Shown: piece by piece, positions 18,629 through 55,736 of the stretch
Layout of the letters: every line of letters begins with the position of its first letter
How positions within the stretch are numbered: the stretch's first letter is position 1
IMG/VR virus record: IMGVR_UViG_3300027985_001320
Span: 1-55,736 of that record
Length of the DNA: 55,736 nt
DNA from: a virus
Direction: 5' to 3' (one strand)
Notes under the pieces: generated by a model
Seen by the model: the letters and a program-made list of their open reading frames with translations, nothing else
Told to the model about the DNA's origin: nothing
The model's database searches: none
Program-made: the position numbers and the translations under genes

Positions 18629-21600
18629 CTAACTTACATTACGCTCAGCATTGATCCTGAACCCCCGACCCCGTTCCCGCTGCGGGGAGGTTTTCGCAGG
18701 TGCAGTCGCCGCGACGGGTTGTGGGTTCGTCGCTGCCGGCCGGTCCCGTGTCAAGGTGACCAGGGTAGTCAACTCCTCACGGATACCTTTCTGCACTGTG
18801 AGCTGTTCACTCAACAACCCGGCCATCGTTGACAACTCCTCAACCATGGTCTCCCGGAGCGTCTCTTGGCGCGCCTGGACCTTATTCCGCAACCGTTCCC
18901 GCTCCGCTTGTAGCGGATTAGCCGGTCCCGTTGGGGTCGGCGTCCCGTAGGTGGCGGAGGCCGCGGCCCCAGTGATACTGAGGGACGACTTCGGTGCCAC
19001 GCCAGTCATCGCCCCTGTAAGATCCGCCGGACTATCCTCAGTGGTCCGTTGCTGAAGTTTTAAGGCTTGCTTGAGTGCGGTCACTTTAGTCGGCCCGGAC
19101 GTCACTGCCCCTTTAATCGTTTCAGGCGGTAAGAGGGGTGCTTCGGGTGTGGTATTGGTAGTGGCTTCAACGACCTCCTGGGTTGTTTTATCGAAGTTAA
19201 CCCCCGCAAACTTGGACGAGTGCTTACGCACCAATCCATCCATGTGTTGGTACAATTCACCCACTGTCCGCGCCCGACCGCCCTTCGTAAAGAAGATCGA
19301 CGGGTTGTTCCTTGCCCCGCTCGGATCAACGGCATTTGCTGGTGCTGAACTGTCCGCCCGTAACATGATGGACGCTTTAGGTGCCCCTAGGAAATGGGCC
19401 AGGTAGATATCCGTATCCGTTACCGGACGGTCTAACACTTTGCTCAGTGCATCATAGTTCTCCTTGATGAATTCAGCCCCCATCAGTGCTGAGGCCCGCG
19501 GATCCAACCGACTGGCGTTCGGGGAGAGCCCATATTTGGCCCCGTGGCGAGACAACATCGTAGCCCACGTACTATCGATAAACTGATAGAGTCCGGTCGC
19601 GGACCCAACCGGTGCCTTAGCCCCCGCCTTGAATCGGGACTCAATGCTCGCCATGGTCATCATCAGGTGTGGATCAACACCCGCCATCGCGGCTACCGCC
19701 CCGATGAGATCATAGTAGTACTGTGCATCCCCATCCCCAGCCGGTATCGGTAAGTTATTGATATCACCGACCGTACCCTTACCTGGGTGGACGACGATCG
19801 CCCCTAACGGCAAGGGGGGCGGTGACGTCAGATGGCCCGCGGAGCGTTGGGCTTGCCGTGTTTGCTGGCGCTGTGCTAACTGCGTGTTCTGTGCCGGCGT
19901 CCCCGACGTGTTGCCAGATGCTGAGCGCTGACCCCGGTTTTGTAACCGGGCCTCACGGGCGGCGTTGCTGGTGCCCACCTTCGGCAGCGGGGAAGGTTTA
20001 TACTCCTCTTGTTTTGCATTCTCCCGCAGTTGGTCGATGATGGCCTTAATGTCACTTAAGGTCGTCTCATAGGACTCCCCACTAAAGGGCCCGTACGGCA
20101 CGTTGATAACACTCATGCTACGTTTGTCATACGTAACCTGCGTACCGACTAACGCCGTAGCGATCGCCAGTTTATCATTCCACGTCATCCCGATTAAACC
20201 CGACGTGACCGTCGCTGTAGGCGCCACTTGGTGTAGGGCACTGATAAAGGTTTGGATCACGGGTAAGAACCGGTATTCTACCCAGTTGCCCCAGGCCAGA
20301 CGATCCTCTTCGGTGACGATCCCAAAGTTACCCCCTTCGCTCGCCACCAGATCAGCGATTGAGCCGGTAAACTCAACGCACCCCCCCGCCAACACGGATA
20401 GGCTATCCACAACACGACGCTCCAGTGACATCAAGGCATTGACACTGGGTTTGCTGTAGCCGATTAAACCATAGAGTGCCAAACGGATCTGCATCAAAGG
20501 ATCCAGCTCCACACCCTGTGTGCCCACCATGCGAGCGGTCACCCCTAATCCGGTTGTTGTAGCGACAGCACCCACTACAGCGCCTGTAGGCTTCCTCAGG
20601 GCCTCACTACGTGGCGTTGCGGAGACAGCAGGGGGTTTGGCTAGGGCAGTCGCTGCAAGCGCTCCAGCCGCCATTCTAGGAGCTTTATCACCTTTTGACG
20701 AATCCTCACTGTGTTCAGCAATGATCGCAGCGCGTAAATTAGCGATGGCGGACTGGTCGTTAAAGGGGGTCACTGAAGCCAGCGGCCCGATCTGTGCGTT
20801 GTACGACACGGTTCCAGTGGCGGATGCAACATCGGCGACGACTTGACCCGTCATCCGACTAAGGTCTTTAAAGGACTTACCTACGGCATACCGCTGTTTC
20901 GCACTGACATGTGCCAGAAAGACCGGTTTGAAGCGCTGCTGGAACCACTCCATCCAGTTCCGCACCGCTGTCATATCGCTTTCATCAATGCCGAACGCCT
21001 GAATAACCTCACCCAGACCCTTACCCGGGGAACGTAACTGTGGACCTTGCTCTGTAAACGCCACATAGTCCTCACAGTACGTTTCCAGCCCCAGCGCCGC
21101 TTCCGCAATGCGTTCATGATCCGGATTGACCCCATACTCCATGATACGGAGTTTACCCAAATCGTTACGCTCACGCCGGAACCAGCGGTAAATGCCATAT
21201 CCCGCTAACCCCGCCCCGGCAACGACACCCGCGCCGACTAACACCGGGGCTGAAAACAGCCCCCCCAGCACCCCAGCGATTGAACCACCGACGCCGCCTA
21301 AAGACCCCAATATACCGAGCATGCTAGTGCCGCCCGCTGTGATCCCGGACAAAGCGGCACTCCCTAATGAAGTAGTTCCCGCCAGCAGCCCTAGTTTACC
21401 TAGCCCAGTTGACGCTACGCGACCGACCGTCTTAATGAGGCTTTTCGGCCGCTTCAAAAGACGCCCCGCTTTTTTCTTCAGCCACTTCCCGCCTTTCTTC
21501 AAACGATCCCACAGACTGCCATCCATGATATCGGTGATGTCATCTGCGGTATCCACGGCATCCAGCAGTGAGCCCTCCTCGTCGTCGTCTTCCTCGGGTT

Positions 21601-24600
21601 TCTTATTCCGTCCGGTGATGAGGCTAATCAGACTTGCCAGACCACCCCCAAACAACGACGGCCGTTTAGCGTCCGGCACCGGTTTACCGTCGCTATCCAC
21701 CGTCCCCGCCTGTGCGGCACGCTGTGCCTGCCAGGACCCGGTCCGCAGTGTCGGTTCGAGTCGTTCATCCAGAATGTCACGGATATCCGTCAACAGGCTA
21801 ACCTGCTGCTTGCCTGCCGTCCCGAAGGCGATCAGGGGATTACTCTCCCCGTCACCGACCACGCGGTTGAATAACCCACGACCTACATCAAAGGCGCCTT
21901 TATATAAACGCCCGGTCATCCGGAGCATCGACAGCGGGAGATTGAACGCCATTCGAGCAAACTCACCCGCCCGCTGTTTAATACTCTTAAAGGGTTTACC
22001 ATACTGGTCGACCAGATTCGGCAAATCTTCAAGGGCGATCCGATCCTTATTGTTGATATCTACGATAGGACCGGTGATATCACTGACCCGTGCGATCGGG
22101 GTGGTGCTGCCTTTAACGAAGTATCCGCCGTTGGCCATAACCGTCCCGACCAGGCGTGGACTGGATTCACCTTTAACATAAACCGACTGCGGACCATCGG
22201 CGAGATCCCGGAGGAACCCAATGCCGCTCTGAACGGCATGTACCCCCATCATGGGCAGGCTGAACGCCATACCCAGATACTTACCGTAGCCCTTAAGGAT
22301 GGTTGAAATTAAATCCGTTAACACCGGTTTACCCATCCGATCGGTCAGGCCCTTCTTGTAGTCCGCATAGGACAATACGATTTCACCCGACGCGTCCAAG
22401 ACATCCCCGGAGATATCTTCCCAGCGTGTTAAGACCTTCCGCGTATTGGCATCAATGTACTCGCCGTTCAGTAGCTTTTCTTTCAATAAGCGCGGCCGGC
22501 GCTCCCCACGCACGTACAGGTTGATCCATTCGTTGGCCCGCGCCACTGTGGAACTGATCAGGTTCCCCGTCATCGACGCGGCCCCGGATAATCCTTTCCC
22601 AAAGAGACCAACGAGCCCGGCATACCCAGTGAGAAGCTGACCACCCGCTTTACGGAAGGTCCCGCCGACCGTCATCGGAGGGCGCCCCTCATTTCCACCT
22701 TTCCACTGGAACCGTTTGATATAACGACTCATTCGCCCAGACAGTTCACTATCCTCCTGGATCAATGACCGGATATAGTCAGCATTGTAGTAACGGCCGG
22801 GTTTAACATGATCCCCCCGGTTAATCCGCTCTTCCAAACTATCCAGCCACTGCTCTGGGTCAAACGGCTCATCACTTTTCATGGCAGCGTCAAGTGACGT
22901 TCGGATTTCAGCCTTTATTCCCCGTAACCGTTCGAGGCGTTCCCGTCCGGCTTCCGTGATCGAAGAGGCGGCATCGGTAACCGAGGCGCGCATTCGACCT
23001 ACCCAGCCCGTACGCCCCCACCGTTTCGGATCAAAGTCGGCTAGCGACAAGCGTGGTTTTCCGCCTGGGCCCACCGGGCCTGGACCACCCCCACCACCGT
23101 TGGGTCCCGCCCCACCTGGAACCCCCTGATTATCCCATTTGGTCAGCAGGATCAGAATCTCACGGCTGACATTACGGTTATCATGGTGATCCATCAAGAA
23201 GGCATTGGTTGCATTGGCGGTACTGCGCGTATTCTGATCGATGGATAACAGAAGGTCATCGAACTTGGCCAGCGATTCTTGATTATCCGGATTGACCCCG
23301 GGCGGTGGGGTCATGCGAATATCCCGAATCGCCTCCGCAATCATTCGGGCGGTTTCTTGGCCCACCGCCGTAACATCATCAGCCCATGCCGGACGAGCGC
23401 TATCAGTGCGACGATCAGCATCACGCTGCATGTCACCAACAGTCGCCCCAGCGCCCGGATACGTCGGCGCAGCTGCATCACTTAATCCCTCATCCTGGCT
23501 ATAAAGGTAATTCGCAAGGTTATCAAAGTTGATACCCACCTGGTTATTACTAAACTGCGTCAGCCCCAGGTCGCTCAAAGCCCCTAGTCCATATTGGCGA
23601 GCGATAGTGTTCAGCACTTCCTGTGCTGATGTGGTATTGCTGATCGAACGCCAGCCATACGAGGCCTTCGCGCGGCGATCATACTGCGCCCGACGTTCTT
23701 CATTTGACAGATCCGTACGGGTATATTCACTGAAGAACGCGGCCAGCTGCGCGGCGTCGTTGGGGCTACCATACCGGCGGTAGGTATCCTCATCCGCCAA
23801 GACGGCCATGTTGATGCCGTGCCCGGCCATCCGGGCAAAGGTAAAGTATTTACCTAAGATAGCACGCGCGCTGGCGGATAGCTGACCGTCCGGATCAAAG
23901 GCGTCGATCATGGAGGTGACATAGGTTTCACTGGGGTTTAAGCGTGACCGTAGCGTGGATTCAATACTACGCGTTACGGTGCGCCGATTCTCCACTCGAC
24001 CCGTACGTGGGTCGAAGATCGACTCTTCACCCCCTTCTCCAGTCAGGATACCCAGGCGCTGATGGATTTTTGCTAACCAGGACGGAATCACTTCGCGAAT
24101 AGCGATGTCCGTATCGGAGGTATACGGGGTCGATTCCCCCATATTACCAAACTCACTCTCATTCTTGCGCAGCGTGCCGTCGACCGTAAAGGTATCCATC
24201 ATACTGCGCAGCCAGTTCACTACGGGGTTAAGTGCCCGGCCTTTAGTGGTCATGGGGTCAAAGAGATCGCTACCGCTTTTGGCAAAGTCGTTGATCTGGC
24301 CAATGTAATCGTTCCCGAATACCGCGGCCCGGTTACCCCCTTCTAACAACCACGGGTAACGCTCCAGCAATCGCCGAATCTTAGGCGCCAGCCACATCGC
24401 CCCTTCGCTGCCGAGGATACTCCCCCCAGCGAGCCCCGCCATCTCGGCCCCAGATGGACCCGGCATATCGCTAGCCATTGCATCCATGCCCATCGTCGCT
24501 TGGGATATCTGCCCGCCCAACGATGATAACTGGTTCTGTAGTGCGCCGCGCAGGTTCTTCGCCGTCCGCTGGGCGAACGTGCTCATGTAACGCCCTGCCG

Positions 24601-25438
24601 TATTGTACGTTCCGCTTAAAATACGCTCACGGATAATGGCGTCCCCCGTTTCCCCCCACCGCAGTTTGAGGAAGTCAGGTAACCCTGTGTTTTTGATCAC
24701 GGCCCGCATCCGTTCATTCATGTCTTTACCAAAAGCGGTAAAGGCTTTAAAGTGGTCACGGGCCACATAGAGATGCCGGTATTTTAATTCCAGCGATTTT
24801 TGCTGGTAACGCAGGGTAATAGTGTTCTGATACCCCGAAAGCCGTGCCGTATCACGGCGAATATACTCCAGCTGCTTAAGGGTCAGTTTCGTCCCTTCTT
24901 CGCTGCGCATTTCCCGCAGATTATCGAGGTCGAGGCGGTATTTATCCTGTTCCGCCTGGAGTGTCTGTTGTCCTTCACTGATCGCTAAGAGTGTCTGTTC
25001 GACCCCCGCTTCTTCCATGCTCGGCAGTGCGCCGACCCCTGGTCCTTTCTCAAGGGCGCGGTTAATACGGTCCCGCATCCGCTCGGGCAGAAATTTACCG
25101 CCTTTCTCCATTACGCCGCGGCCAAGCCGCTTGACGTCTTCCGCGTAAGGCGCAAGGTCGTGCTTGGCCGTATCGTATAGGTCGCCAACGACACGGGATA
25201 CGTCGTTATACGCTGGGGCTACAGCGCTATAACGTTCAGGTAGCGCATCCGAAATGGCCCGGCGAACAGTATCCGGTTGAGTTAGTTGATCCAGTGCCCC
25301 ACTGAAAACGCCTTTACCCACCTTTTCTACTGGGCTGCGACTATCATCGACTTCGTCTGGTAACGAACCATCGAATAACCCATCATCAAAATCATCAAGG
25401 TCAACGTCGTCAACATTAATATCGTCGTCTTTGGCCAT
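18629..25438 (-). CDS. Giant tail protein with lytic transglycosylase (SLT) domain
   Basis: A 2269-residue protein. An SLT-type murein transglycosylase domain lies at about residues 1895-2030: IESRF near 1933 supplies the catalytic Glu, and GSATGLYQFIDSTW carries the second family motif. Residues 1340-1416 form a long Gly/Ala-rich hydrophobic region able to span or enter a membrane, ending in YRWFRRER. The N-terminus is acidic, followed by long charged helices (about 130-260), and the C-terminus has a coiled stretch. phiKZ gp181 is of the same size, has a transglycosylase domain and sits beside virion polymerase genes; this is almost certainly its counterpart. It would cut the cell wall at injection and may also set tail length. 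It is transcribed divergently from the polymerase genes. Confidence 0.9.
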   Translation of the reverse strand: MAKDDDINVDDVDLDDFDDGLFDGSLPDEVDDSRSPVEKVGKGVFSGALDQLTQPDTVRRAISDALPERYSAVAPAYNDVSRVVGDLYDTAKHDLAPYAEDVKRLGRGVMEKGGKFLPERMRDRINRALEKGPGVGALPSMEEAGVEQTLLAISEGQQTLQAEQDKYRLDLDNLREMRSEEGTKLTLKQLEYIRRDTARLSGYQNTITLRYQQKSLELKYRHLYVARDHFKAFTAFGKDMNERMRAVIKNTGLPDFLKLRWGETGDAIIRERILSGTYNTAGRYMSTFAQRTAKNLRGALQNQLSSLGGQISQATMGMDAMASDMPGPSGAEMAGLAGGSILGSEGAMWLAPKIRRLLERYPWLLEGGNRAAVFGNDYIGQINDFAKSGSDLFDPMTTKGRALNPVVNWLRSMMDTFTVDGTLRKNESEFGNMGESTPYTSDTDIAIREVIPSWLAKIHQRLGILTGEGGEESIFDPRTGRVENRRTVTRSIESTLRSRLNPSETYVTSMIDAFDPDGQLSASARAILGKYFTFARMAGHGINMAVLADEDTYRRYGSPNDAAQLAAFFSEYTRTDLSNEERRAQYDRRAKASYGWRSISNTTSAQEVLNTIARQYGLGALSDLGLTQFSNNQVGINFDNLANYLYSQDEGLSDAAAPTYPGAGATVGDMQRDADRRTDSARPAWADDVTAVGQETARMIAEAIRDIRMTPPPGVNPDNQESLAKFDDLLLSIDQNTRSTANATNAFLMDHHDNRNVSREILILLTKWDNQGVPGGAGPNGGGGGPGPVGPGGKPRLSLADFDPKRWGRTGWVGRMRASVTDAASSITEAGRERLERLRGIKAEIRTSLDAAMKSDEPFDPEQWLDSLEERINRGDHVKPGRYYNADYIRSLIQEDSELSGRMSRYIKRFQWKGGNEGRPPMTVGGTFRKAGGQLLTGYAGLVGLFGKGLSGAASMTGNLISSTVARANEWINLYVRGERRPRLLKEKLLNGEYIDANTRKVLTRWEDISGDVLDASGEIVLSYADYKKGLTDRMGKPVLTDLISTILKGYGKYLGMAFSLPMMGVHAVQSGIGFLRDLADGPQSVYVKGESSPRLVGTVMANGGYFVKGSTTPIARVSDITGPIVDINNKDRIALEDLPNLVDQYGKPFKSIKQRAGEFARMAFNLPLSMLRMTGRLYKGAFDVGRGLFNRVVGDGESNPLIAFGTAGKQQVSLLTDIRDILDERLEPTLRTGSWQAQRAAQAGTVDSDGKPVPDAKRPSLFGGGLASLISLITGRNKKPEEDDDEEGSLLDAVDTADDITDIMDGSLWDRLKKGGKWLKKKAGRLLKRPKSLIKTVGRVASTGLGKLGLLAGTTSLGSAALSGITAGGTSMLGILGSLGGVGGSIAGVLGGLFSAPVLVGAGVVAGAGLAGYGIYRWFRRERNDLGKLRIMEYGVNPDHERIAEAALGLETYCEDYVAFTEQGPQLRSPGKGLGEVIQAFGIDESDMTAVRNWMEWFQQRFKPVFLAHVSAKQRYAVGKSFKDLSRMTGQVVADVASATGTVSYNAQIGPLASVTPFNDQSAIANLRAAIIAEHSEDSSKGDKAPRMAAGALAATALAKPPAVSATPRSEALRKPTGAVVGAVATTTGLGVTARMVGTQGVELDPLMQIRLALYGLIGYSKPSVNALMSLERRVVDSLSVLAGGCVEFTGSIADLVASEGGNFGIVTEEDRLAWGNWVEYRFLPVIQTFISALHQVAPTATVTSGLIGMTWNDKLAIATALVGTQVTYDKRSMSVINVPYGPFSGESYETTLSDIKAIIDQLRENAKQEEYKPSPLPKVGTSNAAREARLQNRGQRSASGNTSGTPAQNTQLAQRQQTRQAQRSAGHLTSPPPLPLGAIVVHPGKGTVGDINNLPIPAGDGDAQYYYDLIGAVAAMAGVDPHLMMTMASIESRFKAGAKAPVGSATGLYQFIDSTWATMLSRHGAKYGLSPNASRLDPRASALMGAEFIKENYDALSKVLDRPVTDTDIYLAHFLGAPKASIMLRADSSAPANAVDPSGARNNPSIFFTKGGRARTVGELYQHMDGLVRKHSSKFAGVNFDKTTQEVVEATTNTTPEAPLLPPETIKGAVTSGPTKVTALKQALKLQQRTTEDSPADLTGAMTGVAPKSSLSITGAAASATYGTPTPTGPANPLQAERERLRNKVQARQETLRETMVEELSTMAGLLSEQLTVQKGIREELTTLVTLTRDRPAATNPQPVAATAPAKTSPQRERGRGFRINAERNVS

Positions 25439-27140: not shown

Positions 27141-30100
27141 ATGGCCCGTTACGACTCGCTCTATCGTCGCTATGGTGCGTTTAAGCTCACGCAGTTGGCA
27201 AACCCCCCGATCAATTTTACGACAGAGTTTGAACTGCCGCTAAATGCGCTTTATCACTTTGTACCGCAGGTTATCCATGATCGTGGACCGTCCATGGACG
27301 ATTTCATGGTCAAGCGGTATAAACACCCGGTCCGGGTTGATCACGTCAGTCAGTTGACCGTTGTTGAAGGGACCCCCCGGCATCTGTCCACCGATATCCG
27401 TAACTTGGCCCGGGATTACCACCGCGCCCATCCACACTTTCGGCCGGCACGAAACGTGGAGGCGACCTTGAATGACGGCCAGACCTTGCTGGTCGAAAAC
27501 TACGGTCTGCTACCGTCCATCTACCGGTATACCGCCAGCATGTACAGCGACTACTATCGGCGGATGAACCTTAACGAAACCGTAATGGCCCAGGTCGTTG
27601 CGTTTAATAAACGCAGTGATCGTCATCAGTTCATTCGCATTAAGTTGCCCGAAGCCCTGCCGACCTACGCCTTGTTACGCAGTGTGGTCGACGCCCGTCA
27701 GAATAATAATGCGCGCCGCTTCCGTGAGCTGATGTTGGAGCACTTCAATACGTTTGAACTCTATTTCATCGCCTTTCTATGGGCGGAAATGGTCGCGCCG
27801 ACCCATCCACTGGAGGCTTATGATAATTTCAACGTGGTGTTCTATGACTACGGTAAGTTCACCTGGTTGAATGTCGGCCAGTTGATTCGGTGGGCCCAGA
27901 ACGATAAGGGGGTAAGCCAGCAAGCCTTGGGTGATGACGAGCACATCGACTGGGTGGCATCGAGTGACGCCGAGGCGTCACTCCAAGGTATCGACCGTAA
28001 GATCGTCGACGTGCAGATGCGTTTCTTGCGCCATCTGATCGCGCTGATGGAGGTGCGGACGAAAAATGATGTTCAGGATGACCCGACCGAACACCCTGAG
28101 CCGGAAGAGGTGGGATATAGTGAAGAAGAGACGGTCGTTCTGGATCCGGAAGACATTGATCGTGATATTGCTCACCTGGAAAAGGTCGCAGAAGCGAATG
28201 TCACCAATGACACCATTGACCGTCCGGAACCCACGATTCTCGACGGCGTAAAAGTCGTCGCCGATGAGATGGCGGATGCTGGACTTGTTTCCGGGGCGGA
28301 ATACCGTCGGATGTTGAAAAACGCTGATCGGTTTAAAGAAGTGCCTAACCCCTATGGGGGCCCGGGGACCCTAGCCGATCTGGCGGTGGTCACCCATGAG
28401 GAGATGCAGATCACGGCGCCGAAAGTGATCAAGTCGATCGAGGGGGTGACGGACACCTCCATGTTGAAACAGACGTTTAATGCCGCTGACAAAACCTACA
28501 CTAAAAATATCCTGCCGAAGCATATTACTCAGGCGGTCATGCAGGTGCAGAAAGAGGGTTATTCTGTCGTAGGCTATACCGTCGAACCGGTCATATCCGC
28601 TGTTAATGACTACAGCATCCACCGGGTCACGATTATGCCGCCAAAAGGCAGCCCATTTCAAATGACATTCCGGCTACCGACGATCAATGCCGGTGGGACG
28701 ATGTTGATCGATGGGACGGAGTATCGGTTTCGACCGCAACGTATCGACATGCCGATCCGTAAAGTCAGCGCCAGCCGCGTGGCATTAACAAGCTACTACG
28801 GTAAGGTCTTCGTCGACCGTGCAGAAAAGAAAGCGTATAACTTGACCAACTGGCTGCAGCGCATTATACAGGACGCGATCAGCGATAATGAAAATACTAC
28901 CCTGACGAACGGCGTATTTGGTAATGCCTTTTATAAAAACATCCACGTACCGTTGCACTACAGTATCATTTCACAACAGGTCAGATCGTTTGACCTGAAC
29001 GGGATCGCGTTCTATTTTGATTATGAACGCCGGGTGGACCATTTCGGGGCCAGTGTTGTAAAACAGGCCGAAACAAAAAACTTTATTCTGGTTGGCCTGC
29101 GTAACCAGAAACCCGTGGTCATGGGAAATGATAACGTGGTGTATGAGGTTACCCCTCGCGGTCCGGAGCCGTTGGGTACGATCCCGGCGCTGATGGGCTA
29201 CAGTGCAGACCAAGTGCCGATGATGATGGCGACCGTCATGGTCTATGGTAAACCGGTACCCTTAGGGCTGGTGTTGGGGTATTACATTGGGTTACCGCAG
29301 CTGTTAACCCTCACCGGGGCGGAATACCGCTTAATGAATGCGCGGACGCGCGACCAGATCGCCCCCGATGAATTTGTTATTCGGTTTTCCGACGAATGGT
29401 TGGTTATCAACCGGGATAGTCCCCTGGTGGAATTGATCTTTTCCGGTTTTTTGGAAGCGAGCAAAATTCTACCGCGGTACAGCTACGCCCAGTTTCGTCA
29501 GCCCGAAATCTACATCGGTGTTCTGGAGCAGATGAAGATCAGCGTGACCTATGCCCGGGAGATACGGGACCTGCGCACGCGTTTCATCGACAACATTACG
29601 GTGGGACTGTTAGAACAGATGGGGGAACCCACCGCGTGGGTGCCGTTACTGTTACGTTCAGCTAAACTGTTAACGACGGAATGGCATCCTGACGAGATGT
29701 CCATGGCGTACCAGCGTTTCCGTGGATCGGAACGACTAGCGGGGACCGTCTACAATGAAATCAGCCGGGCGATCAAACAGGAGACCGCGAAACCAGCGAG
29801 CGCCCGTGGTAAGTTGACGATTAACCCAGAAGCCGTTTGGATGTCCATTGTCACGGATGCGGCGATGGATATTGCTAAAACCTCTAACCCTATCGCACAG
29901 ATCCGCCAGAACGAGACGGTGACGCACACGGGTAAAGGCGGACGCGGTGGTAAGAGCATGGTCTATCGGACGCGTAAATTCTCCGATGAGGACCTGGGGG
30001 TAACCTCAGAAGGGACCGTCGACTCAGGTAGTGTTGGGATCGTGAGTCAAGTATCACCCGCGGCGAATATCACGTCATTGTACGGTACCACGCGACCTTA

Positions 30101-31307
30101 TAACCCTGAAACCGATGGCCCGGCCTCTGTAGTCTCCAGCGCGGCGCTGTTAGCCCCGTCCGTTGAACATGATGCGATCCAACGTATCATCTTCGTAGGG
30201 ATTCAGCAAAGTGCGGGGGTGTCGGGGATCGGTTATCAACCGTCACCGGTGAATACCGGCTATGATAAGGTGATCGCGCATGATACGGACTACCGCTTCT
30301 CCGGTATCGCAGAGCAGGATGGTGTTGTTACAAATATCACCGACCGTGTCTTATCGGTACGGTATAAAGATGGCACCGAAGCGCACTTTGAACTGGGCCG
30401 TATCTACGGAAAGGCGGCGGGTCTGGGTATCCCGCACACCTTAGTTGCCAATGCAAAAATAGGCCAGTCGTTTACCGCGGATGACGTGCTGGTCTATAAC
30501 AAGGAGTATTTCCAGCCGGACTATAATGAACCCAGTCAGGTCATCTGGAAAGCGGGCGTTTTAGTCCGTACCGCGCTCGTCGAACGCGACAGTACCCATG
30601 AGGATGCCTCTGAAATCTCTCCACGGGTAGCACAGTTGTTGTCGACCCCGATCACTAAGGTACGAGAGATTACGCTGCGTTATGACCAAGCGATCAGCGA
30701 ACTCGTTAAACCTGGAGCGTCTGTCAACGCTGAGGATATTCTATGCATTATAGAGGATGCGGGATTATCTGAAAGTGGGGTCATCAGCGATGAGAGTCGG
30801 ATGACGTTGCGCCGACTGGGGCGCGATGCACCTTCGGCGGATATCCGTGGGACGGTGGAGCGGATCGAAGTACTGTACAATGGTGATTTAGAGGAGATGA
30901 GTCAGTCGCTGCGTGCGGTGACACGACGTTCTGATCTGGAGATGCAGCGCCACCATACCGCCATGGGGCGTCCCGGTAAAATGTCCGGTGCGGTTACCGC
31001 TTCGTATCGTGTGGAGGGTAATCCGTTGCAGGATGGTAACGCGGTTATTCGCATCTACATCAGTACATTGATTCCCATGGATATAGGGTACAAGGGGGTA
31101 TACGCTAATCAGATGAAATCCATCTTTAGCGGTATTATGTCCGGCCCCAACACCATGGCAGACGGTACTGATATTGATGCCTTCTTTAGTTATCAGAGTA
31201 TCAACAACCGTAACGTTGACTCCGCCATCCGAATCGGCATGGCTAACTTTAACTTGGAAACCCTGGCCCACAATGCCATAGCCCTGTATAAAGGAACGAC
31301 ACAATGA
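27141..31307 (+). CDS. RNA polymerase beta subunit, apparently with both halves
   Basis: A 1388-residue protein close in size to E. coli RpoB (1342). Near residue 517, GGTMLIDGTEYRFRPQ matches the bacterial N-terminal signature GTFIINGTERVIVSQ. Near residue 1313, GYKGVYANQMKS matches GDKMAGRHGNKG with the two active-site lysines at the same 8-residue spacing, followed by DGTDIDAFFSY, which aligns with the GTPVDIVLNP region. Both catalytic regions are therefore in one chain, whereas phiKZ is described as splitting beta into two proteins. About 500 residues precede the first signature, including an acidic, low-complexity segment (about 310-360), more than in bacterial beta. It is one base from the beta-prime gene and has an ATGA overlap with the next gene. 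Confidence 0.9.
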   Translation: MARYDSLYRRYGAFKLTQLANPPINFTTEFELPLNALYHFVPQVIHDRGPSMDDFMVKRYKHPVRVDHVSQLTVVEGTPRHLSTDIRNLARDYHRAHPHFRPARNVEATLNDGQTLLVENYGLLPSIYRYTASMYSDYYRRMNLNETVMAQVVAFNKRSDRHQFIRIKLPEALPTYALLRSVVDARQNNNARRFRELMLEHFNTFELYFIAFLWAEMVAPTHPLEAYDNFNVVFYDYGKFTWLNVGQLIRWAQNDKGVSQQALGDDEHIDWVASSDAEASLQGIDRKIVDVQMRFLRHLIALMEVRTKNDVQDDPTEHPEPEEVGYSEEETVVLDPEDIDRDIAHLEKVAEANVTNDTIDRPEPTILDGVKVVADEMADAGLVSGAEYRRMLKNADRFKEVPNPYGGPGTLADLAVVTHEEMQITAPKVIKSIEGVTDTSMLKQTFNAADKTYTKNILPKHITQAVMQVQKEGYSVVGYTVEPVISAVNDYSIHRVTIMPPKGSPFQMTFRLPTINAGGTMLIDGTEYRFRPQRIDMPIRKVSASRVALTSYYGKVFVDRAEKKAYNLTNWLQRIIQDAISDNENTTLTNGVFGNAFYKNIHVPLHYSIISQQVRSFDLNGIAFYFDYERRVDHFGASVVKQAETKNFILVGLRNQKPVVMGNDNVVYEVTPRGPEPLGTIPALMGYSADQVPMMMATVMVYGKPVPLGLVLGYYIGLPQLLTLTGAEYRLMNARTRDQIAPDEFVIRFSDEWLVINRDSPLVELIFSGFLEASKILPRYSYAQFRQPEIYIGVLEQMKISVTYAREIRDLRTRFIDNITVGLLEQMGEPTAWVPLLLRSAKLLTTEWHPDEMSMAYQRFRGSERLAGTVYNEISRAIKQETAKPASARGKLTINPEAVWMSIVTDAAMDIAKTSNPIAQIRQNETVTHTGKGGRGGKSMVYRTRKFSDEDLGVTSEGTVDSGSVGIVSQVSPAANITSLYGTTRPYNPETDGPASVVSSAALLAPSVEHDAIQRIIFVGIQQSAGVSGIGYQPSPVNTGYDKVIAHDTDYRFSGIAEQDGVVTNITDRVLSVRYKDGTEAHFELGRIYGKAAGLGIPHTLVANAKIGQSFTADDVLVYNKEYFQPDYNEPSQVIWKAGVLVRTALVERDSTHEDASEISPRVAQLLSTPITKVREITLRYDQAISELVKPGASVNAEDILCIIEDAGLSESGVISDESRMTLRRLGRDAPSADIRGTVERIEVLYNGDLEEMSQSLRAVTRRSDLEMQRHHTAMGRPGKMSGAVTASYRVEGNPLQDGNAVIRIYISTLIPMDIGYKGVYANQMKSIFSGIMSGPNTMADGTDIDAFFSYQSINNRNVDSAIRIGMANFNLETLAHNAIALYKGTTQ

Positions 31308-49293: not shown

Positions 49294-51552
49294 ATGTATA
49301 CCTTAAAGGGCTTTATCGAACTGCCGGGGTGGGAAGATAACGCCAGTAACGCACTTGCACGTTTCGGTGAACTAGCCCCGATCCGACGCACCTTCGCTAA
49401 AGACAAAGGGATCTACAGTGACGACACCTATCCCGGTGTACGGTTACTGGCATTTATGAGTGAAGACGCCACCGGCGTCGTGACGGCGCCCGTGGACGTG
49501 ATCTCCGTGGTGCTCAATCTGGCCCACTGGCTACGTGGCCATGCGGTGGCCGGCACTCTGAGCGATACGGAAACGGACTTAGCTGCCGCGATTATCGGCG
49601 CCTTTGGCACACAGGTCGCTAACGTCGACGTCGGGACCATTGTTGAAGAGGCTGTCACCGGCTACCGTCTCCCTATTCGTCTGCGCTTTAACGTCACCGG
49701 TGGCACCGATACTCAAGATGTGAGCCTGTGGTTCACGGATGCTGAATTCGCCACGACTTATCCGGAATACTCTATCGCGGTCATCCCCCCGGTGGCCGAT
49801 CTGGATGCCTTCTATAACCAGCTGTCGGCGGCGGTCCAAACGCAATACGTACCGCGCACCGTGACGGAAACCCTGGCATTAGTACAAGCCAACCGTGGCC
49901 TGTATCCGGAAACATTGTCAGCTGGGCTTGAGTTTAACGCGTACTTCGTCAATGCACCGGGTACCCCGTTTATTTCGACCGTATGGACCTACATGAACTG
50001 GGGGGTGGCAGGCGATAACATCGATGTTATCCGCACCGCCTTACAAAACTACATTCTGGATAATAGCACCCACACCCGGGCGGAGTGGACGCCGATTCTC
50101 CCTGACCTGTTCTTGTCGACGGAGTTTGTGATCGTCCCGGGGTGGAATGTTTATGCGATTCCGAACCAGGAACTGGTCAGCGGACTGTACAGTCCCCAGC
50201 TGTCGTACGTGCAAATCAACCGCCTGCTCGGGAATGGGTTACCTGCTGAGTATCTGGCGAACGAAGCACAACTGCAACTCACGGTCGTGGTTACCGCGTC
50301 CATGTACAAATCATTGGGGTTGGTGACGGCCGGTGGGCCTGAAAACCGGGCGGGGATGGAACGGTTAAACCAGGTGATGACCGACTATATCGTCGTCCCA
50401 ACGACCAACTCTGAGTTCAACCGAATGAGTAGCATTACCCGTGAGTGGGTCGTCTTGCTGAACAAAGCGTTGTTACAAGCCGAAGTCGCCGACGACAGCT
50501 ACGAGTTAACGCCCGGCTTTAGCCGTGTCATCCGCGATGACCGCGTGTATATTTCGTTTTTCTACGACAGCGTACTTTATCTGGTATTAACCAAAGCCAC
50601 GCTGAGTGATCAGGATGTCAATAACGTGCTGATCCTGGATACCAGCGGGGACGGCACAGGTACCACCGTCACCTATTTTGGTGATGTGGGTTATTTCGCA
50701 TCAGGTATCTTGAGCTCCACTGCACTCACCCCGAATATCGACGCCATCGACTTGACGCAACTGGCGGATGCCGTCTCCTTCAGTGCACTGACTGTCGAAC
50801 GCAAGCAGTTGGTCGCGAGTACCAACGGCTCCCGCGGTGTCTTCGGGGGCGGTTGGGTCAGTGAAACCGAAACGGCGGTCTCCAGTTTGGAGTACCTCGA
50901 CTATGTGTTGCCGGCATTGGTGCAGACGTTTGGGGCTCTGGTGCAAGGGCGTCGAGAGATGGCCGCGGTTTCCGGTAGTGGCTACGCGGTCTTCGGGGGA
51001 GGCTATAGCACCACCTACCAGAACCACCTGGACGTGATTGACATTGCGATCCCAGGGGATGCTGTGTCGTTCGGGACATTGGCCACCGCCCGCTACGGGG
51101 CCGCCGGCACGTCGAACAACTTGACGGGGTATATTGCCGGGGGGATGACCAATCTACCGCTTGATACTTTGGAGTCGTTTGACATCCTGACCCAAGCGGA
51201 TGCGGCCACCTACAGTTTGTTGACGGTTGCCCGTGATCATCTGGCAGCGGGTTCTGATGGTACCACCGCGGTCTTCGGGGGCGGTAATACCGGCACGATG
51301 GTTAATACGATCGACAAACTAGCCTTTGCCGTTCCGGGCGCGACGACCGACTTCGGCGACTTAACGGTGGCGGTGGATGGCAATGCGGCCGCGCACAATG
51401 CTACCCGTGTTCTGTTCGCTGGCGGGCGCAGTGCAACCACCATTCCCGTCGATAATATCGGCGTGATTCTGCCGACCACCCCTGGAAATGCGACACCCTA
51501 TGGTAATCTGCGGTCGGCCACCGCGTCGTTGGCTGGCACGTCCGGCGCTTAA
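49294..51552 (+). CDS. Tail-fibre-like protein 1 with Kelch-type repeats
   Basis: A 752-residue protein. Residues 1 to about 445 form a domain shared with the next gene (both begin MYT-x-x-GFIE and share YAIPNQE and ALQNYILDNS). From about residue 470 come roughly six repeats of the pattern FG-x-L-x3-R, a variable stretch, then VFGGG, a Kelch/galactose-oxidase type beta-propeller signature found in phage adhesins and other binding proteins. The last repeat is cut short (YGNLRSATASLAGTSGA). It is likely a receptor-binding or fibre protein with a constant attachment domain and a variable binding domain. GAGG precedes the ATG. Confidence 0.72.
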   Translation: MYTLKGFIELPGWEDNASNALARFGELAPIRRTFAKDKGIYSDDTYPGVRLLAFMSEDATGVVTAPVDVISVVLNLAHWLRGHAVAGTLSDTETDLAAAIIGAFGTQVANVDVGTIVEEAVTGYRLPIRLRFNVTGGTDTQDVSLWFTDAEFATTYPEYSIAVIPPVADLDAFYNQLSAAVQTQYVPRTVTETLALVQANRGLYPETLSAGLEFNAYFVNAPGTPFISTVWTYMNWGVAGDNIDVIRTALQNYILDNSTHTRAEWTPILPDLFLSTEFVIVPGWNVYAIPNQELVSGLYSPQLSYVQINRLLGNGLPAEYLANEAQLQLTVVVTASMYKSLGLVTAGGPENRAGMERLNQVMTDYIVVPTTNSEFNRMSSITREWVVLLNKALLQAEVADDSYELTPGFSRVIRDDRVYISFFYDSVLYLVLTKATLSDQDVNNVLILDTSGDGTGTTVTYFGDVGYFASGILSSTALTPNIDAIDLTQLADAVSFSALTVERKQLVASTNGSRGVFGGGWVSETETAVSSLEYLDYVLPALVQTFGALVQGRREMAAVSGSGYAVFGGGYSTTYQNHLDVIDIAIPGDAVSFGTLATARYGAAGTSNNLTGYIAGGMTNLPLDTLESFDILTQADAATYSLLTVARDHLAAGSDGTTAVFGGGNTGTMVNTIDKLAFAVPGATTDFGDLTVAVDGNAAAHNATRVLFAGGRSATTIPVDNIGVILPTTPGNATPYGNLRSATASLAGTSGA

Positions 51553-51620: not shown

Positions 51621-54600
51621 ATGTATACCGTCAATGGTTTTATCGAGATCGCCGATTGGGTCGACAATACCACGGCGACAGTGGCGCCGGTGGGGGAACT
51701 CTCACCCATTGCCCGCACCTATGCGCAAGATAAGGGCCGCTACGCCAGTGAGTCGTATGAGGGATACGAACTCATCACATTTATTAGCCGCGATCAAGAT
51801 GACCAGTACGTCACCTTGCCACAGGTAGCGGTGGATGCGGTATTTGACGTGGTGTTGTATTTGCAAAATCTTGCCGATGCGGGCATCTTGCCCTTGACCG
51901 CCGCGCAGCTGAAATTGGATCTGATTAACCGATACACGAATGGCTATAGTAACTTCGCCCTCAGCGAGGTAGTCGCTACCGGGATCGGGCAACAGCGGTT
52001 CATCAATCGCCTGAGCTTCAACTTTACTAGCCTCACCGGTCAGTCCTTTGCCTTTGCGTTGTGGTTTTCCAATGCGGAATTTATCGCCACCTTTCCCGCC
52101 TTCCTTACGGCGGTGATTCCGCCAGATGAAGACCTGAATACGTTTTATCTCAAAATGGCGGGCTATACAGCCGATACTTTTACCGCGGCCCCCTTAGTGG
52201 ATGTTTTAATGGCGATCCGCTTAACCCGTGCGCAGTACCCCGAAACCTTGCTGACGACCCGGGAGTATACCGCCCACTTTTTCAATCTGACGCTGGTTGA
52301 ACAACCCCTAGTTAACTTTGCAACCACCTGGACGATCCTGGTGTGGGGGACGCAATCCCCAGCCGAATCCACTATTCGGGCGGCGTTACAAAACTACATT
52401 CTGGATAACAGCGATTATACACGCAGCCAGTGGGCGAAAGTCTTTCCCGAACTCTTTAACGCTCAAGAATTCATTGTTATCCCCGACTGGGATATTTATG
52501 CGATTCCGAACCAGGAAGTGGAGGCTGGTCTCTATAGCCCAGCGGTTAATTACCACCAGATCAACCGGATGGTACGGGAAGGGCTACCAGACGATTATAA
52601 CGCGCATCTCAGCGACGTTCAGAAAAACCTGGAGCTGACTACCTTTATTTACAAATCGCTCTCTCTGGCGGTTATAGGCGGCCTTGACAACGCGATCGGC
52701 ATGACGTTACTGTCGGCGGTTTTCCCAGACTACGTTTTAGTTGATTCACTGGATCCCCGTTTTGCTCGCATGGCCCCACGGACGCAAGCATTTGTCTTGC
52801 TGCTAGAAGCAGCGATCATGGAGGCTGAAGGGTTGACGCCGTACAACCAATTGGATGTTCGGTTTAGTCGAGAATTCCGCGACGGGCGCTACTATGTCAC
52901 CTTTGACTATGAGGAACTCCATTATCTCGTACTGGCGAAGCGGTCGATGCACGTGCAGGACATGGATAATCACCTGCTGTTGGATACGGCACTTCATACG
53001 TACGTTAACCCGCATGAGGAAGCGATCGAGGTGCCACCGGAGCCCGTACCAGACCCCGTGTATACGTTCTTGGAGAGCAAAACGGTCGCCAGTGATGAGA
53101 AAGGGATTGTTTTCATCGACGATGATGGTTACATCAAACCCTTTGCTGAAGATTATAACGTCCGGGCGCAAGATGCGGTGTTGGGATGGGGGCGTGTTCC
53201 AGCAATGATCTCAGCGTCCTGTACGGGCAATTTGGTGTTGGTTCTGGATACCGCCGGTGAGGTCACTTTCCTTGGAACCAGCGGCCAATTTAACGTCAAT
53301 GATTACCGCCTTGAACGGTTTAAGAATGTAGCGTATGTTAACGCCAGTTTTTACGATGCCGCCTTGATGGTCTTTCTGGACGGGACCGTTCACGCAATTG
53401 GTGCCGACTGGTATGGTGAAATCTCTGGGGTGAATAACGCAGGCATTACGGACGCGATTGCTATCTGTGGCGGTTTCTTTCATACCACAGTGCTGCATGA
53501 AGGGGGAACCTGCTCAACGTATGGGATTGTCTCTGAAGCCTATTTAGCCCGTGAAGCCGAAGTGACCGGAGTTGTTAAATTATATCGTAGCGATACCTTC
53601 AGCATCTATCAGTACAGCGATAACAGCATTGAATTTAACTCGATCTATGACACGATCTCGCCAACATCTGCATACGCTTTGATGTCTGACACTGATCGTC
53701 AGAATGTTAGAGGTTATGCTATCGCCGCTAGTGTCCACATCATCATGTACCTGGATGGGACCGTCAAAGCTTTTGTGGCGGCAGGGTCGGATGACTACGA
53801 TATTGCTGCGGATATTAACGCCGCGGGGATTATGGATGCTGTGGAGGTGGCCGGCGGGCGCCGTAATGCTATGATCCGCCATGCTTCTGGTGCGATTACA
53901 GTGTATGGGACTACAGTCCTGAGTAGCATCATTTCGGCGTGGCAGCAGGACGGTGTGGGTTTTGCTGGGGTGTTTGATGCAGTCGCGATGGAGGTCGACG
54001 CAGCATGTGGCTATGCATTACGCAGCGATAATACCCTGATTAGTTTTGGGGATAATTACTATCGGAACAGCCCTACCGCTTCACGAGGGTTTGGCGAAGG
54101 GAACCTCGTTAAGGTCGAGGATTATGATGACTGTTATCTAGGGTTATTTGATAACGGTTATGTCCGTTGGACCGACCTCATAGTCGATAAGCAAGATACT
54201 CAAGTCGTGCACACTGATGCGGTTGATATCGCGATCGGCTACTACAGTTATAAGAACACACCGGTCGTGGTACGCTCTGACGGGGGCGTTGACGTTACGA
54301 TCAGCACTACGGAGGGTGACCTGATTGCGGCGTCAGTCAGTGGAATTACGGATGCGGTGAAGGTGGCGGCAGGGAAAGGTTATCTGGCCGTTCTTCATGC
54401 CACTGGACGTGTCAGTATGCATGGGGTTGATACGTATGGTACCTTCGCCGAGGTAGAAGCGTGGACGGATATTATTCAGATATTCGGTGAAAGGACCTAT
54501 GTCATTGGGGTGGATGCTACGTTAACTGCGTATACTGCGGGTAACTTTGCGTACGGCCCGCAGGGCGAGACGGACGTGGTAGGGGTCAGTACGTATGCGG

Positions 54601-55517
54601 ATAGTTGTATGTGCATGTACCCCAATGGTTCGGTCAAGGTGTTCGGTCCCTATCACGGTACGGTCATTGAGTACGTTGGTAACTTTATGCGCAGCATCGT
54701 TCAGATTCACCGTGACTATGACCGCGCCGTCATGATGGATGATGCTGGACATTTAATCAAGTACACATATCATGCCGAGGCGGCCGAAGCAACTAACCTC
54801 CAGGGGATCACGGTCACCCCCACCGGAACAGTTCAAGCCCCTGAAGTGCCCATATCAGCCCTACCCGATACACCCTCTCCTCATGGACCACGTGGGTATG
54901 TTATCGGAGGGGACGATGTCGGGTTTCGCAATGATTACACGGATTTGATCCAGATCATCGATATTGCGACACCGGGCAACACGGGCTATTTCGGTAGCTT
55001 GATTTATGCCCGATCTGAAGCGGTGGCCGCGTCAAATGGTCACCGTGCCGTCTTTAACACCGGGGAGGGGTATGGTCCGACCTGGAACCGTACGGTTTTT
55101 GACTACATCCAGTTAGGGACACCTGCGTTAGCGGCGATCTACGGTGACAGTGGATTGTCGGTAGCCTGGGCACAAGGGTCGTCGGTGGGGGATGTGGCTT
55201 TGTTTGTGGGCGGATATGATACCGATACCTGGGACAGTATCCGCACCATCTTCCAGTGTCAGCTCTCCACACCTGGCACAGTCGCCAGTTATTCGGACCT
55301 GAGTAAGGAGCTGGAGGAGGGGACGGCCACGTCGGATAACAGCCGCATTTATCTGATCGGCGGATATGAAACTCTGGACTATAACTACGCCATGGGCGTC
55401 ACCGTTCTGGATCCGATCCAACAGACAGAAGCCAATGACTTTGCCACCTTCACAGTATCGTTGGGGGGAAATATGTCGGCGGCGTCGACCTCAGGCCGTA
55501 ACAGGTGGTGGTTATAA
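51621..55517 (+). CDS. Tail-fibre-like protein 2 with RCC1-type and Kelch-type repeats
   Basis: ATG 51621 (GGAG 6 nt upstream, same start as its paralogue) is preferred over 51609, giving 1298 residues. Residues 1 to about 445 are the shared attachment domain. Residues about 485-1055 contain repeats of the RCC1/regulator-of-chromosome-condensation type (such as GGFFHTTVLHEGGTCSTYG and AAGKGYLAVLHATGRVSMHG), a seven-bladed propeller fold. From about 1090, Kelch-type repeats like those of fibre 1 follow. The frame stops at 55515-55517 inside a repeat (ASTSGRNRWWL), while the repeat continues in the next frame. The protein is therefore either truncated or the sequence contains a frameshift. A receptor-binding role is inferred. 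Confidence 0.7.
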   Translation: MYTVNGFIEIADWVDNTTATVAPVGELSPIARTYAQDKGRYASESYEGYELITFISRDQDDQYVTLPQVAVDAVFDVVLYLQNLADAGILPLTAAQLKLDLINRYTNGYSNFALSEVVATGIGQQRFINRLSFNFTSLTGQSFAFALWFSNAEFIATFPAFLTAVIPPDEDLNTFYLKMAGYTADTFTAAPLVDVLMAIRLTRAQYPETLLTTREYTAHFFNLTLVEQPLVNFATTWTILVWGTQSPAESTIRAALQNYILDNSDYTRSQWAKVFPELFNAQEFIVIPDWDIYAIPNQEVEAGLYSPAVNYHQINRMVREGLPDDYNAHLSDVQKNLELTTFIYKSLSLAVIGGLDNAIGMTLLSAVFPDYVLVDSLDPRFARMAPRTQAFVLLLEAAIMEAEGLTPYNQLDVRFSREFRDGRYYVTFDYEELHYLVLAKRSMHVQDMDNHLLLDTALHTYVNPHEEAIEVPPEPVPDPVYTFLESKTVASDEKGIVFIDDDGYIKPFAEDYNVRAQDAVLGWGRVPAMISASCTGNLVLVLDTAGEVTFLGTSGQFNVNDYRLERFKNVAYVNASFYDAALMVFLDGTVHAIGADWYGEISGVNNAGITDAIAICGGFFHTTVLHEGGTCSTYGIVSEAYLAREAEVTGVVKLYRSDTFSIYQYSDNSIEFNSIYDTISPTSAYALMSDTDRQNVRGYAIAASVHIIMYLDGTVKAFVAAGSDDYDIAADINAAGIMDAVEVAGGRRNAMIRHASGAITVYGTTVLSSIISAWQQDGVGFAGVFDAVAMEVDAACGYALRSDNTLISFGDNYYRNSPTASRGFGEGNLVKVEDYDDCYLGLFDNGYVRWTDLIVDKQDTQVVHTDAVDIAIGYYSYKNTPVVVRSDGGVDVTISTTEGDLIAASVSGITDAVKVAAGKGYLAVLHATGRVSMHGVDTYGTFAEVEAWTDIIQIFGERTYVIGVDATLTAYTAGNFAYGPQGETDVVGVSTYADSCMCMYPNGSVKVFGPYHGTVIEYVGNFMRSIVQIHRDYDRAVMMDDAGHLIKYTYHAEAAEATNLQGITVTPTGTVQAPEVPISALPDTPSPHGPRGYVIGGDDVGFRNDYTDLIQIIDIATPGNTGYFGSLIYARSEAVAASNGHRAVFNTGEGYGPTWNRTVFDYIQLGTPALAAIYGDSGLSVAWAQGSSVGDVALFVGGYDTDTWDSIRTIFQCQLSTPGTVASYSDLSKELEEGTATSDNSRIYLIGGYETLDYNYAMGVTVLDPIQQTEANDFATFTVSLGGNMSAASTSGRNRWWL

Positions 55518-55736
55518 TTCGTCGGCCACGAGTTTGATGTTCTACTTCGATACCGCGGTGGGGGGTAACGCTGCATCATTCGGCCAGTTAACGGCGAGTC
55601 GTAAGGCCGGTGGTGGAACGTCCGACGGCACCCAGGGTGTCTTTATCGGCGGTACTGTAAGTTATACCAACAGTAAAACCATCGACTACTTCACGTTCGA
55701 TAGCCCCGCCAATGCGGCGGACTACGGTGATTTAGA
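55498..55736 (+). pseudogene. Out-of-frame continuation of fibre 2, cut by window end
   Basis: Read from 55498 in the plus-one frame, the sequence encodes VTGGGYNSSATSLMFYFDTA, then SFGQLTASRKAGGGTSDGTQ and GVFIGGTVSYTNSKTIDYFT, with no stop to the window end. These are exactly the repeat patterns of both fibre genes, so they belong to fibre 2. Either one base is extra or two are missing near 55491-55503 (a sequencing error or mutation), or there is a +1 ribosomal frameshift, for which I see no classical slippery signal. Confidence 0.75.

Follow-up and report, generated by a model that had tools for sequence, protein, structure and literature searches.

The last large open reading frame of the virus record IMGVR_UViG_3300027985_001320 stops inside a series of repeats while an overlapping frame carries repeat sequence onward, which raises the question of whether this phage makes two forms of one protein, carries a truncating mutation, or owes the break to the way in which its sequence was assembled. 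The window analyzed here is the entire IMG/VR record, 55,736 bases long and of class linear; a record of this class is often a fragment. An RNA polymerase beta-like subunit is encoded at 27141-31307; it shares about 36% identity with its counterpart in Xanthomonas phage LucasX and has matches in 283 phage records, the phiKZ-like jumbo phages PhiPA3, Noxifer, and PA1C among them. This subunit also matches the PHROG RNA polymerase beta subunit. Additionally, a UvsX-like recombinase gene, an RNase H gene and a gp157-like gene occur in the order known from phage 201phi2-1. Because of the RNA polymerase matches and this 201phi2-1-like gene order, the contig is, as judged from its gene content, a piece of a phiKZ-like jumbo phage genome.

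The break falls in the second of two tandem genes (Table 1). By profile alignment, the N-terminal domains of both gene products, about 440 residues each, are full-length members of phrog_3293: residues 1-437 of the first match with an E-value of 1.2e-108, and residues 5-447 of the second align to positions 1-431 of the 436 in the profile with an E-value of 1.1e-98. The N-terminal domain of the second gene product also matches a solved chain, PHIKZ157 (PDB 9xqd_J; E = 2.5e-40), and we refer to the pair as gp157-family genes. A search of NCBIfam returned no match. The first-pass annotation had named the second gene a tail fibre. This name is an unproven assumption, because PHROGs files phrog_3293 under head and packaging; the KTN4 record labels its own gp157-family member a putative structural head protein. 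In the middle of the second gene (52971-54815), weak RCC1-like repeats were seen (PF25390 and PF13540, below cut-off), and this region may hold further propellers.

Table 1. Features of the tandem gp157-family genes and of the frame change in the second gene.
Feature	Coordinates	Strand	Basis or remark
First gp157-family gene ("fibre 1"), 752 aa	49294..51552	+	PHIKZ157-like domain at aa 1-437, five kelch-like blades
Five kelch-like blades, first gene	about 50770-51468	+	Blade profile matches
Second gp157-family gene ("fibre 2"), frame-0 ORF of 1302 aa	51609..55517	+	PHIKZ157-like domain, RCC1-like middle (weak), four kelch-like blades, break
Four kelch-like blades, frame 0 of second gene	54828..55406	+	Blade profile
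Six-G run, only in-phase XXX_X site (at 55464) in the overlap 55366-55514	55463..55468	+	Judged not to be the break site
Frame-change interval, frame 0 to frame +1, within fifth blade	55484..55502	+	Codon usage, blade profile
Plus-one frame: remainder of blade five, blade six (55570-55695), start of a further blade	55495..55736	+	Cut by contig end
TAA stop of frame 0, reached past the break	55515..55517	+	Sequence

Beyond these domains, the C-terminal parts of both gene products consist of degenerate blades of about 47-51 residues each. Ten such blades align without gaps over 42 positions, and an anchoring GG is present in all except one, which has TG. The blades are variable in both genes, and since the best pair within the two genes is 73% identical in DNA, the earlier description of the repeats as perfect has to be dropped. 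Their scores against curated kelch models fall below the cut-offs (14 bits against 25.3 for Kelch_6, and 15.2 against 50 for Kelch_KLHDC2_KLHL20_DRC7), and AlphaFold2 models of both proteins were too poor to be read for a ring fold (mean pLDDT 44.7 and 30.0). We call these regions propeller-like from their repeat pattern, with the propeller as a candidate fold.

As first described, frame 0 of the second gene ends in ASTSGRNRWWL followed by a stop codon. The plus-one frame is free of stops from 55357 to 55734, and the two frames are open together over about 158 nt (approximately 55357-55514). By codon usage, frame 0 is preferred up to about 55490 and frame +1 from about 55500, and the optimal break follows a frame-0 codon whose last base is at 55490-55502. 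A seven-state Viterbi path through the whole window changes frame at 55489/55490 and follows the plus-one frame for the rest of the contig. When a blade profile was made from the nine other blades, leaving out the one in the plus-one frame, it picked up that blade too, besides the five of the first gene and the four that the second gene encodes in frame 0. The plus-one blade is more than a chance match: its E-value was 5.5e-8 in a search of the window's 1600 stop-free stretches, of which the best outside the two genes reached E = 0.39. The plus-one blade region is 35.5% identical over 76 residues to the upstream blades of the second gene. Accordingly, the claim that repeat sequence continues in the plus-one frame to the window end stands on codon usage and on the blade profile. 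These results confirm that the frame change is present in the sequence and that the plus-one frame is more than a chance open frame. The fifth blade begins in frame 0 and finishes in frame +1, with the break in the middle of the blade, and the predicted frame-0 product has four complete blades and part of a fifth.

If ribosomes were programmed to shift by +1 (or -2) at this place, the gene would yield two products, a four-blade short form and a long form carrying the whole set. In favour of this, the two frames overlap, the overlap contains a run of six G with an in-phase GGG_G site, and rare codons and stop-codon pausing are described as able to drive +1 shifts (PMC10885494). However, codon usage favours a junction later than the G-run, and the in-phase site lies some 20-30 nt before the preferred one. 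GGG_G sites are also common (133 in the 11,745 codons of 14 ORFs). A shift at the run scores 4.1-4.2 bits against 9.9 for the best jump and would swap out the blade residues between the run and the junction, and single-step shifts as a class match the blade profile worse than longer jumps do. No shift-prone codon was found at the junction itself. RNA folding of 55480-55600 was at the mean of shuffled sequences (z = 0.04, with 99 of 200 shuffles folding at least as well), although a stimulatory RNA structure is not always required for a programmed frameshift. Viral contig searches found no relative with both these blades and the two-frame layout, and our literature search found no account of a frame break or of recoding in jumbo-phage tail proteins. 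The authors of PRFect note in the same paper that sequencing errors may account for annotated frameshifts in which none of their motifs is present (PMC10885494). With neither a shift-prone codon nor unusual folding at the junction, the suggestion that a programmed +1 frameshift makes two fibre forms is not supported, and we consider programmed frameshifting very improbable. The corresponding biology, a jumbo phage with four-blade and full-set forms of a propeller-bearing virion protein produced by recoding inside a blade, is just as doubtful. Were it true, the phage would vary its host recognition while its genome stayed the same, and one genome could build two receptor-binding forms.

The size of the step between frames bears on what kind of event took place. 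Read-through peptides over the junction were scored against a ten-blade profile, and frame 0 alone gave -0.1 bits and frame +1 alone 3.8 bits. Jumps of +1 or -2 reached at best 4.9 bits each, jumps of +4, +7, and -11 reached 5.0-5.8 bits, and a jump of -5 or -8 reached 9.9 bits. The differences at the junction are small, and intact blades left out of the profile score 3.3-37.8 bits against it. Blade spacing only leans toward the loss of a few bases, a somewhat better fit than a slip of one base. The blade profile disfavoured a one-base gain at the junction by a margin of only about 5 bits, and when residues are counted by eye onward from the aromatic one that opens the blade, a two-base loss fits as well.

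We infer that the frame change is an unprogrammed small indel, and that a consensus or assembly error at the contig end is somewhat likelier than a true mutation, with a probability that we place just above even. On this reading, an error of consensus or assembly would have introduced a small indel into the last ~240 nt of the contig, within the fifth kelch-like blade encoded by the second gp157-family gene, and the phage itself would have one unbroken frame through the blades. Both sides of the break have normal coding usage and belong to the same blade family. An error at the contig end fits because this frame change is the sole one seen inside a gene across 55.7 kb and the contig end is about 241 nt away; the probability of a random break that close to either end is about 0.009, as calculated after the fact. 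Coverage usually drops toward contig ends, and strain variants of a variable surface gene can be misjoined in assembly. The position would also be consistent with a variable gene, if its strain variants mutate and at the same time bring assembly to a halt. A candidate second break near the other contig end (~893) was rejected, as the two reading frames at that place look like distinct genes, each with its own ATG.

Some observations speak against an error. The rest of the contig reads clean and gives no hint of frequent indels. Losing several bases at once is more characteristic of replication slippage, or of a junction between strains, than of short-read error. The variable blades of both genes also make a true mutation there plausible. 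To a genuine frameshift mutation, either fixed or a minority variant, that truncates the second gp157-family protein within its propeller-like C-terminal region we assign a lower but still appreciable probability. The loss could be tolerated with a paralogue of the same N-terminal domain and blade type encoded just upstream, and that first copy could keep the basic function. Across the gp157 family, C-terminal additions are dispensable: 25 of the 30 related loci whose gene ends were checked stop no more than 16 residues beyond the domain. Yet such a mutation would need to be very recent, given that codon usage is still normal in the plus-one stretch and a blade is clearly recognizable there, and it would have to have fallen at a contig end by coincidence. 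Phase variation, in which slippage at a short repeat switches the C-terminal blades on and off, is compatible with a blade-length misfit that points to the loss of a few bases, but the junction showed no tract of tandem repeats. Locally, the sole direct repeat is 82% identical with its copies 46 nt apart, and the homopolymer is just six G and outside the preferred junction; we regard such switching as the least probable of the readings, below even programmed frameshifting. Of the earlier interpretations, an assembly error and a plain truncating frameshift have held up as the two best, and programmed recoding has not. The break is most likely an artefact or an ordinary mutation, and it gives no evidence of two fibre forms. 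It serves mainly as a caution that breaks near contig ends need a check of the reads before they are given a biological reading.

We looked for relatives of the region in several collections. No sister phage emerged from viral_contigs when it was scanned with either gp157-family gene, with the RNA polymerase subunit, or with the plus-one stretch; a viral contig search for an exact 29-base pattern gave no match, and the one genome_contigs scan gave no relative. For the RNA polymerase, even the best segments of the nearest matches did not exceed 44% identity. With the four-blade piece as query, two weak loci were recovered (L128 and L129; 32% identity over ~90 residues, E = 4e-4). Six-frame translations of 128 other loci held no blade at E <= 0.01 in a search of low sensitivity, run with default filters, that missed L128 and L129 too. 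Among named phages, blade pieces of the second gene had no match, and the sole matches to blades from the first gene were in Synechococcus phage S-SKS1 (HQ633071 and NC_020851), at 28 places in the 2 records.

The tandem arrangement of two propeller-tailed gp157 genes matters more than the frame break. A search of named phages with the first gene gave 299 matching places, spread over 273 records. S-SKS1 accounts for 14 places in each of two records, and the remaining 271 records have 271 places, therefore one gp157 copy each. All seven annotated relatives that were inspected are single genes of 437-452 aa, too short to hold blades. In IMG/VR, where 78 loci were found, 44 of the 50 records searched have exactly one gp157 match and the other 6 have none; a blade match at E <= 0.001 occurred in none of the 50, in a search run without a positive control. 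Longer gp157 C-termini were nonetheless present among the 30 loci with checked gene ends, extending by 48 residues in one (L098) and by 109-111 residues in four (L100, L108, L122, and L126). Short C-terminal additions thus recur, and a tandem gp157 pair with long blade regions was seen only here. From these gene ends, the gp157 C-terminus seems to accept added domains. The tandem propeller-tailed genes suggest that this conserved virion protein of jumbo phages uses its C-terminus as a display site for extra domains. The present genes therefore resemble the phrog_3293 / PHIKZ157 family in the ~440-residue N-terminal match and in lying near RNase H as in 201phi2-1, and they differ from it in being two tandem, extended copies, where the family usually has a single copy without C-terminal repeats.

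Two known systems offer points of comparison. One is phiKZ gp131, which has been described with a C-terminal seven-bladed propeller (PDB 4GBF) and speculatively assigned a role in receptor binding (PMC4901313). Like the proteins here, gp131 is a jumbo-phage virion protein with a C-terminal propeller-like region, a likeness in kind only; the second gene had no gp131 match in a PDB search at E <= 0.1, which reported only 9xqd_J. In Salmonella phage SEGD1 (KU726251.1; L130), the gp157 gene is likewise interrupted, being annotated as two coding sequences with a gap between them, and in its relative SPN3US the gp157 gene was matched in one piece. Unlike the break described here, that of SEGD1 lies within the gp157 domain and not in blades.

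Two further features were observed elsewhere on the contig. A tRNA-Leu gene with anticodon TAA lies close to the contig start, at 1489-1575. On the minus strand, 18629-25438 encodes a 2269-aa protein with a transglycosylase SLT domain that matches phrog_3201, a PHROG named tail fiber protein.
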